37,003 nucleotides of DNA from Syntrophomonadaceae bacterium (lineage in GTDB: Bacteria; Bacillota; Dethiobacteria; DTU022), in contig SLPH01000179.1 in the NCBI GenBank assembly GCA_007132095.1, positions 1-37,003 on the forward strand, in the 5' to 3' direction. Every line of letters begins with the position of its first letter. Within the stretch, counting starts at the first letter, position 1. The notes below the pieces were generated by a model. The model did no database searches. It had not been told where the DNA came from and was given only the letters and a program-made list of their open reading frames with translations. This document shows positions 11,750 through 27,119 of the stretch, piece by piece. The position numbers and the translations under genes were made by a program.

Positions 11750-12790
11750 ATGGAAAAAACCGATTTTATCACTCTAAAAGAAATTGCAGCAATGGATCCG
11801 GGCAAAGAAAAACGCTTCTTTTCGGCTACATTCTCTGAAATAGAACGGGGCTTGACCAGCGATATTTACTTTGTCCGGACCAGGGACCTTTTAACTCAGA
11901 TGGATCTGGCCGCAACCCCCGTCACCGCTGAAATATTTTCCTCACGGGCTGGTGTATTGGCCGGGATTGACGAATCACTGCACCTTTTGAGAAATCGCGG
12001 CCTTGAAGTTTGGGTTATTCCGGAAGGAAGCCCTATGGAGGCCCGCGAGGTGGTCATGCGCATCAAGGGGCCTTACGGGCAGTTCTGTATCTATGAAACC
12101 CCTCTTCTTGGGATCCTGGCCAGCTCAAGCGGCTGGGCAACGGCAGCCCGCAGCTGTAAAGAGGCCGCTGCCGGACGTCGCGTGATTTGTTACGGAGCAA
12201 GGCACTTGCATCCTGCCGCCGCTCCTGTTATGGAGAGAGCGGCCGTTACCGGCGGCGCAGACGGTTGCAGCTGTATAATTGCCGCCCTGCTTATGGGCCG
12301 GCGCCCGGCAGGGACAGTTCCCCATGCCGCTTTTCTGATAGTTGGCGATACGGTTGAATTGGCCCGGGCCTACGATCGTTTTGTTCCCGAAGAAGATCCG
12401 CGGATCATCCTTGTTGACACCTTTAAAGACGAAGCCGAAGAAGCGCTGAGGGTTGCCGAAGCCCTGGGAGAGAAGCTAAACGGAATTCGCCTCGATACAC
12501 CCGGCGAAAGAGGCGGGGTGACCCCGGGACTTGTTCGGGAAACGCGGGCTCGCCTTGATCAGGCCGGCTATTCCCACGTCCAGATTATAGTTTCCGGCGG
12601 CCTTACCCCTGAACGGATAGCCCTTCTGGCAGAAGCAGGGGCTGATGCATTTGGTGTTGGCAGCTATATATCAAGGGCGGCGGCAATAGATATGACTATG
12701 GATTTGAAAGAAGTTGACGGAAAAGCTATCGCCAAGCGGGGGAGAATTCCCGGCGTCAGTAAAAATGACAGGCTGGTGAGGGTAAGCTGA
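11750..12790 (+). CDS. pncB: Nicotinate phosphoribosyltransferase
   Basis: Couples nicotinate to PRPP to form nicotinate mononucleotide. At 346 residues it is of the short class common in Firmicutes and archaea. Evidence includes TSDIYFVRTRDLL near the N-terminus, the conserved YGARHLHP at about 148-155 (catalytic His region), GRRPAGTVPHA, ILVDTFKDE and LDTPGERGGVTP, and the phosphate-binding IIVSGGLTPERI / FGVGSYI barrel end. ATG 11750 has GGGAGG upstream and lies 15 bp after the nicotinamidase-like gene. Its stop codon overlaps the likely ispE start (CTGA). Confidence 0.93.
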   Translation: MEKTDFITLKEIAAMDPGKEKRFFSATFSEIERGLTSDIYFVRTRDLLTQMDLAATPVTAEIFSSRAGVLAGIDESLHLLRNRGLEVWVIPEGSPMEAREVVMRIKGPYGQFCIYETPLLGILASSSGWATAARSCKEAAAGRRVICYGARHLHPAAAPVMERAAVTGGADGCSCIIAALLMGRRPAGTVPHAAFLIVGDTVELARAYDRFVPEEDPRIILVDTFKDEAEEALRVAEALGEKLNGIRLDTPGERGGVTPGLVRETRARLDQAGYSHVQIIVSGGLTPERIALLAEAGADAFGVGSYISRAAAIDMTMDLKEVDGKAIAKRGRIPGVSKNDRLVRVS

Positions 12791-25960: not shown

Positions 25961-26050
25961 ATTTATTCTCATGGTAGCAGGATTTACCAAGTATGTGTAG
26001 AATAAAGCTATTACTGTGCTCTAAAAAAGGTTGCATTGGAGGGAAGCCGG

Positions 26051-26389
26051 ATGAAACCTGCAAAGAGGCCCAAGGGCAAACCTGCTGTTTCGTCTTTTCC
26101 GGTGCAGCGGCGAGAAAACCGTTTTACTTTTTACCGGTTACTCAGCATGGTAGGTTTGCTGGTCATTCTTGGCCTTGTCCTGCTTGTCGGGGCGCAGTCG
26201 CTTCAGCAGTACCGGCTTCAGCAAGAGCTGGCCGACTATGAAGAAACTATCAAACTGTTTGATAACCGCAATGAAGAGCTTTCGCTGGAGATTGAACGCC
26301 TTCAAGACCCCGGTTACCTGGAGGTTTTGGCCAGAAGCAGGTTAGGCCTGGTTAAGCCTGGAGAAATTATCTTTCAGCTTGAAGAATGA
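26051..26389 (+). CDS. divIC: DivIC/FtsB-like septum formation initiator
   Basis: A small bitopic division protein of 112 residues. A basic cytoplasmic N-terminus (about 1-33) is followed by one membrane span at about 36-54 (MVGLLVILGLVLLVGA). A coiled coil of about 40 residues (QQELADYEETIKLFDNR) follows, ending in the family's closing motif LARSRLGLVKPGEIIF. It would act with FtsL and DivIB in the septal complex. ATG 26051 is 7 nt after GGAGGG; the open frame also allows TTG 26036. It lies before yabR, as in Bacillus. Confidence 0.9.
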   Translation: MKPAKRPKGKPAVSSFPVQRRENRFTFYRLLSMVGLLVILGLVLLVGAQSLQQYRLQQELADYEETIKLFDNRNEELSLEIERLQDPGYLEVLARSRLGLVKPGEIIFQLEE

Positions 26390-26413
26390 CCATGGGACTG
26401 ATATAGTTATAAT
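26386..26413 (+). promoter_or_regulatory. Possible promoter of the S1-domain gene
   Basis: ATGACC (26386-26391), 16-nt spacer, TATAAT (26408-26413), lying across and just after the divIC stop. The leader would be about 34 nt. Confidence 0.4.
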
Positions 26414-26453
26414 GTAAATGTTTTAAGCATTTATCAGCAAGGAGGAGTTTTAG

Positions 26454-26864
26454 ATTAAGAAGGATTTAGCAGTAGGGACCATCGTGGAAGGAGAGATTAC
26501 CGGTATAACCAAGTTTGGCGCTTTCGTGGAACTTCCCGGAGGCACTACCGGGCTCGTTCATATCTCAGAAGTAGCCGATGTCTACGTCAAAGATATTAAC
26601 GATTTTTTCAAGAAAGAGGATAAAGTAAAAGTCAAAATCCTCTCTGTGGAAAGCAATGGTAAAGTCGCCCTCTCAATCAGACAGGCTATTGCAGGAGCGT
26701 CCCCATCTAGAAAAGGAGGACGAAAGCGTCCTGTAAACCAGCCTTCGTTTGAAGACAAAATGAATCGCTATCTCAAAGAAAGCGATGAGCGGCTATCAGA
26801 CTTAAAGCGCCACACGGAGTCCAAGCGCGGCGGCGGTCGCGGATCATTCCGGGAAGCTTTTTAA
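26454..26864 (+). CDS. S1 RNA-binding domain protein (YabR-like), apparent ATT start
   Basis: A 136-residue general stress/ribosome-associated type S1 protein. The single S1 domain fills residues 7-80 (VGTIVEGEITGITKFGAFVEL, GLVHISEVADVYVKDI, VKVKILSVESNGKVALSI), and the rest is a basic, disordered tail with Gly/Arg residues (KRGGGRGSF). The first usual start codon, GTG 26484, would remove strand 1 of the S1 fold. Upstream the frame is open to a stop at 26451, and the first codon after it, ATT 26454, lies exactly 8 nt after a perfect GGAGG. ATT is a known rare start (infC). YabR of Bacillus begins at the same place. RNA binding is expected; the target is unknown. Confidence 0.88.
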   Translation: MKKDLAVGTIVEGEITGITKFGAFVELPGGTTGLVHISEVADVYVKDINDFFKKEDKVKVKILSVESNGKVALSIRQAIAGASPSRKGGRKRPVNQPSFEDKMNRYLKESDERLSDLKRHTESKRGGGRGSFREAF

Positions 26865-26935: not shown

Positions 26936-27011
26936 GCGCTGCCCTGTTTTTAAAAAACAGCAGTAGTGTGGAGCGCCCATTTTACATAACGCCTTTAACT
27001 TCCCTAAAACG

Positions 27012-27035
27012 CACTCTCTCCGGGAGTGTTTTTTT
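27012..27035 (+). terminator. Terminator before tilS
   Basis: CACTC / GAGTG around a 7-nt GC-rich loop, followed by seven T residues. It ends the S1-domain transcript about 150 nt after the stop. The stem is short, so strength is moderate. Confidence 0.75.
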
Positions 27036-27119
27036 CTTCATATCAAGTTGTTGATAAAGGCTTAGACATTATAAAGGTATTACTCCTTGACGAGGGCACC
27101 CTACCCGACAGGTTGTGGA

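Follow-up and report, generated by a model that had tools for sequence, protein, structure and literature searches.

Where does translation of a small S1-domain gene begin in a member of the Syntrophomonadaceae, and is its start codon part of a control of protein amount? To our knowledge, documented examples of conserved non-usual start codons are very few in bacteria. The locus lies in a contig stretch of 37,003 nucleotides (hereafter the window), which had been interpreted beforehand from its letters alone. This sequence-only reading proposed a start at ATT, as in infC, and comparison with related genomes strongly supports ATT 26454 as the translation start. The gene and its immediate surroundings comprise the following features.

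26454–26864, forward strand: yabR-like S1-domain gene, 136 codons plus stop (open frame, Pfam, NCBIfam)
26469–26681, forward strand: S1 RNA-binding domain, residues 6–76 (Pfam PF00575)
27011–27039, forward strand: terminator-like hairpin with T tail, 3' of the gene (two such hairpins in the stretch versus 1.0 expected from shuffles)

Counted from ATT, the S1 domain matches profile positions 3–74 with an E value of 4.7e-20 and 72.2 bits, compared with a gathering cut-off of 22 for PF00575. The best NCBIfam matches are PRK08582 and PRK05807 (S1 domain-containing RNA-binding protein), which we take to represent the YabR type; as the score of 149.6 bits stays below their cut-offs of 171 and 178, the gene is named “yabR-like” only. 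Its position is that of a YabR locus, between divIC and tilS-hpt-ftsH. A DivIC match (26036–26386, Pfam) precedes it, and the translations of the ORFs that follow look TilS-, HPRT-, and FtsH-like as judged by eye, the tilS-hpt-ftsH order being presumably that of other Firmicutes YabR loci. The predicted structure of the protein is of modest quality (mean pLDDT 64, pTM 0.40) and supports no more than a strand 1 at residues 10–18; in 37 aligned relatives, G8 is invariant and V7 nearly so. A PADLOC search gave no match.

The start region is composed of five elements.

26439–26445, forward strand: Shine-Dalgarno (SD) sequence AAGGAGG, 8 nt upstream of ATT (sequence)
26451–26453, forward strand: in-frame TAG adjoining ATT, closing the frame upstream
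26454–26456, forward strand: proposed start codon ATT (clade comparison: ATC in 18/27, ATT in 9/27 genomes)
26457–26459, forward strand: second codon AAG, invariant in 27/27 clade genomes
26484–26486, forward strand: GTG, first usual start codon, within strand 1 of the S1 fold, rejected as main start (Pfam match, coding constraint, structure prediction)

The GGAGG noted earlier at exactly 8 nt before ATT is indeed there (26441–26445) and belongs to the longer AAGGAGG; in the clade described below, the spacing from GGAGG to the start codon is 8 nt in 25 genomes and 9 nt in two. Since TAG directly adjoins ATT, no farther-upstream start is possible in the yabR-like frame of the window, and this candidate was ruled out. 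The stop-to-stop frame is identical with 26454–26864 (136 codons), and its first ATG, GTG, or TTG is GTG 26484, which is codon 11. Read in this way, the gene begins with an AUH codon (AUU, AUC, or AUA) and has no usual start upstream. Codon 2 is always AAG, yet only 171 of the 486 lysine codons elsewhere in the gene are AAG and 315 are AAA. As an observation in its own right, codons 11–15 of the clade read NTG GAR GGR GTG ATW with nearly constant third bases (window 26484–26498).

Among the 43 genomes of the family to which the window belongs, the start could be read in 39 (27 AUH and 12 ATG), two of the others having no match (G013, G033) and two no pattern match (G062, G064). The 27 AUH genomes form a clade of 10 genera carrying ATC (18) or ATT (9), and in no case ATG, at the homologous codon behind a nearly invariant leader; the conservation check suggested by the sequence-only reading thus came out in its favor. 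The other 12 readable genomes, from seven other genera, have ATG two codons downstream, and all 15 sister-family genomes read (of 24 matched) use ATG as well. Across the rest of the family and the sister families, this ATG sits one or two codons after the AUH position, an AUH start being present in 27/27, 0/12, and 0/15 genomes of the clade, the rest of the family, and the sister families, respectively. Wider sampling gave the same distribution: in a set of 80 loci, the 16 that fall into the AUH clade (L036–L051) have ATC or ATT and the other 64 have ATG (62) or TTG (2) as read by eye, and a scripted assignment of 92 non-clade loci yielded 87 ATG, 3 TTG, and 2 unassigned. When 398 genomes from across the phylum were scanned with a pattern, all three clade genomes in the set (G000, G002, and G007) were recovered; the remaining yabR-like matches all contain ATG (by eye). 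Within the clade, the frame is closed directly before the AUH codon in G000 and G028, one locus (L169) has an extra codon after the AUH start, and 22 of the 27 genomes lack any usual in-frame start upstream; an in-frame upstream ATG, GTG, or TTG is present in the other five members (L008, L009, L017, L020, and L025).

The 27 clade genomes share one origin and do not represent 27 independent events. A tree was calculated from 54 proteins after removal of their first ten residues; it unites the 27 AUH genes in a single branch, which has a support of 100 and sits on a long stem (0.65 changes per column). Within this branch, the start codon has undergone at least six C/T switches at its third base and none to A or G; ATA accounts for 103 of the 235 isoleucine codons elsewhere in the gene, yet it is absent at the clade start. 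In a survey covering 61,358 ancestral AUG starts, only one switch to AUU is recorded (PMC5622118); given this rarity, a fixed change kept across ten genera is unusual. Furthermore, the codons behind ATT evolve as coding sequence. The ratio pN/pS amounts to 0.18 for codons 2–10 and 0.07 for codons 12–41, compared with 1.01 for the stretch from −42 to −16 read in frame (26 genomes), and the stretch between ATT and GTG 26484 is therefore most likely translated. The S1 fold also begins upstream of GTG, as had been claimed: the Pfam match starts at residue 6, and counted from GTG it sets in only at position 8 of the profile, with a score lower by 7 bits. At the level of sequence, these comparisons establish the position, conservation, single origin, and coding constraint of the start.

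A different arrangement is seen in relatives with a usual start. GGAGG is found nearby in 86 of 90 of them, at a distance of at least 11 nt in 84 of the 86 and of 12–13 nt in 72 (35 at 12 nt, 37 at 13 nt). In samples from these genomes, only 13–19% of first ATGs with an upstream GGAGG show a spacing of at least 11 nt. With a stretched SD-ATG distance in the relatives and a weak codon in the clade, the gene seems built for weak initiation widely. This suggests that weak initiation of yabR-like genes is old, being achieved by distance in the relatives and, as we infer, by the codon in the clade.

A promoter-like site lies farther upstream.

26386–26413, forward strand: sigma-A type promoter-like site ATGACC-N16-TATAAT (comparison with the clade)

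At the equivalent place, 25 of the 27 clade genomes have a perfect TTGACA-N16-TATAAT; the window copy has ATGACC at −35. A perfect 12/12 site occurred in 0 of 5,400 shuffled clade upstream regions. Full-consensus sigma-A promoters before yabR-like genes (spacer 16–18) also extend far outside the clade, to 10/11 loci in the rest of the family, 12/15 in sister families, and 10/18 outgroup loci tested. The consensus energy of the leader RNA calculated by RNAalifold is near zero with no conserved structure, so that a riboswitch-like leader is unsupported.

Taken together, we propose that the usual ATG, located two codons on in the nearest relatives and 12–13 nt from the SD in most, would have been lost in an ancestor of the clade, where codon 3 is now AAG, AAA, AAC, or GAA, and that initiation would have shifted to the AUC/AUU codon at the normal spacing of 8–9 nt. 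A poor start codon would then follow a strong ribosome-binding site and, in the majority of clade genomes, a promoter of full consensus, for which reason the mRNA should be plentiful and its initiation throttled. We hold this explanation as a whole (start at ATT 26454, loss of ATG in the clade ancestor, and throttled initiation) with good confidence, and by analogy the odd start is probably a brake on protein amount. In vitro experiments show that reading of AUU by the CAU anticodon becomes disfavored as IF3 rises (PMC10158994). Whether the throttle would depend on IF3 is, by the same kind of analogy, evenly balanced; that the codon has been kept for low translation sensitive to IF3 discrimination, in parallel to infC, is a reading that we favor by a narrow margin only.

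The comparison with infC itself is well founded: infC starts with ATT in the genome of the window, and among 30 loci positioned by alignment, 29 show ATT at the start; in the remaining one (L157), positioned one codon in, ATT stands immediately before. Two further genes showed AUH starts of limited taxonomic spread. For larB, all 30 family loci (L257–L286) have an AUH start (ATT 20, ATC 8, ATA 2), eight of them without a usual start upstream or within the first 19 codons; L286 (G022) is ambiguous, with ATA followed by GTG. In a sister family, larB has ATG in 4/4 strings (G058, G045, G046, and G056). For glpK (L328:16279–17796), the pattern matched in 8 of 43 genomes, with ATC or ATT in 6/6 clade genomes and ATG in 2/2 outside; in G063, the spacing from GGAGG to ATT is just 2 nt. 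The AUH starts are hence nested on the taxonomy, from infC over larB (family-wide) to yabR and glpK (one clade). It is conceivable, in our view rather unlikely, that this set was built stepwise with infC as its oldest member, that the IF3 level acts on all genes together, and that start-codon identity serves as a shared regulatory code, which would connect metabolism and a ribosome-type S1 protein with the machinery of initiation. The nested spread in any case provides a natural series for distinguishing weak starts selected for control from those merely tolerated.

Extension of the search to 754 coding ORFs of two clade genomes revealed ATT, ATC, or ATA after a good SD upstream of usual starts in 17/205 cases versus 89/2,708 for other codons (Fisher p = 9e-4). 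The same screen gave no excess in family f5 (4/88 versus 54/1,346) and no significant one in clade B (5/63 versus 47/1,180). Sixteen ORFs of the clade sample had strict AUH matches, and for eight of them a family profile extends at least as far upstream as the first usual start: yabR, glpK (ATC), an ABC permease (ATC), a GT4 glycosyltransferase (ATA), and an L-2-hydroxyglutarate-oxidase-like gene (ATA), the last four in G007, as well as an EVE protein (ATT), an S58 peptidase (ATT), and recX (ATC/ATT) in G000. The other eight are unresolved or false-looking. Outside the clade sample, the profile-backed fraction was 1/4 in clade B (pth) and 0/4 in f5. In this pth gene (L368:18808–19401), the Pfam domain begins before any usual start, and an ATC behind GGGGGAGG is the likely start codon. 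Regarding the EVE-domain protein (L193:15530–15931), ATG occupies the same or an adjacent codon in four of the five relatives read, and the fifth has GTG, which indicates that such AUH starts can come and go. In the window itself, ispE lacks ATG, GTG, or TTG ahead of its conserved N-terminus, and initiation at the usual codon GTG 12847 would truncate the fold; a CTG at 12787 shares bases with the TGA that ends the ORF before it (CTGA, 12787–12790) and is likely a coupled CTG start. An ATT behind AAGGAGG at tmk of the window was rejected as AUH start because a GTG with its own SD lies just before the conserved N-terminus.

These findings have to be weighed with respect to a possible, if doubtful, reading in which the AUU/AUC start is real and serves no specific control, start-codon selection being relaxed in the lineage, for instance by changes in IF3, so that AUH starts persist in many genes. 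The further profile-backed starts in G007 and G000 and the ATG found in most relatives of the EVE gene are consistent with it. So is the clade IF3 (L222:12243–12749), whose five clade-specific residues all fall within the C-terminal domain (D95, D/E100, R105, K108, and Q156; 8 clade versus 22 other sequences). The E. coli counterparts of R105 and K108 in the alignment are S113 and R116, a patch that we take to bind the 30S subunit; clade-specific changes of IF3 are, however, to be expected anyway on a long branch. The initiator tRNA has its usual three G-C pairs, which argues against relaxation and led us to reject an altered initiator tRNA. Moreover, most genes keep usual starts (first good starts in the screen: ATG 440, GTG 133, TTG 172), and in the respective groups yabR, larB, and glpK show no ATG in place of the AUH codon, though a single substitution would produce it.

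Far less probable is the formation of two products, a long form initiated at the AUH codon and a shorter one initiated at the NTG of codon 11. The conservation of this NTG and the low third-position variation of codons 11–15 would fit such a dual start. Codon 11 is, however, also conserved where a normal ATG start exists, the window has no SD at a usable distance from it, and strand 1 would be incomplete in the short form. Translation from GTG 26484 alone, with codons 1–10 as leader, appears more improbable still. No usual start precedes this GTG in the frame, and codon 11 reads GTG, ATG, TTG, or CTG in 27/27 clade genomes, yet NTG (dominantly GTG) is usual there also in relatives with a clear upstream ATG. 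The coding constraint on codons 2–10 speaks against initiation at GTG, as do the loss of the invariant G8 and of the beginning of strand 1 and an SD that is 38 nt away with none preceding GTG. A sequencing or assembly error of ATG, conceivable in an assembly of 220 contigs, is practically refuted by the agreement of 26 further genomes. Slippage of the polymerase or a frameshift at the T run was rejected as well, since this run is just four T long in the window and ATG arises in none of the shifted readings.

In practical terms, gene callers restricted to ATG, GTG, and TTG miss such starts and would deprive the yabR-like product of ten residues of its RNA-binding fold. Within a literature search of partial coverage, no report on the yabR start or on AUU starts of larB was found. 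The nested AUH set (infC, larB, yabR, and glpK) is a newer part of this work than the single yabR-like start, which joins a known class of starts that are weak and, by analogy, probably IF3-sensitive. This class is broader than previously assumed for ATT, said to be known mainly from infC: precedents for non-usual starts include infC, pcnB, sigR (GTC) of Streptomyces, and staphylococcal ccpN (AUA) and cvfC1 (AUU) (PMC5472188, PMC13009471).

Compared with YabR of Bacillus subtilis and relatives, the gene shares the S1 domain and, with B. subtilis, the position after divIC, where yabR comes next to divIC within the yabMNOPQ-divIC-yabR operon (PMC1925097). It differs from these relatives in that they use ATG, mostly 12–13 nt from GGAGG, and in scoring below the NCBIfam equivalog cut-offs. 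With infC, known for AUU, AUC, or AUA starts and itself ATT here, it has in common a long-conserved AUH start behind a strong SD. However, AUC is commoner than AUU in the yabR-like genes, their AUH start is limited to one clade, and their product is an S1-domain protein, so that any feedback would be indirect, in contrast to the IF3 feedback of infC. The sigR gene of Streptomyces resembles it by a conserved non-usual start (GTC in 32/34, GTT in 2) with a strong SD, where IF3 represses the GTC start (PMC5472188); it differs in its codon, GTC rather than AUH, and in an IF3 dependence demonstrated in Streptomyces, the yabR-like case being argued from sequence. Conserved AUH starts in Firmicutes are also found in ccpN (AUA) and cvfC1 (AUU) of Staphylococcus aureus, with extended, strong SDs; these are different genes, have starts mapped by profiling, and reach an output of about 10% of that of AUG in S. 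aureus (PMC13009471).
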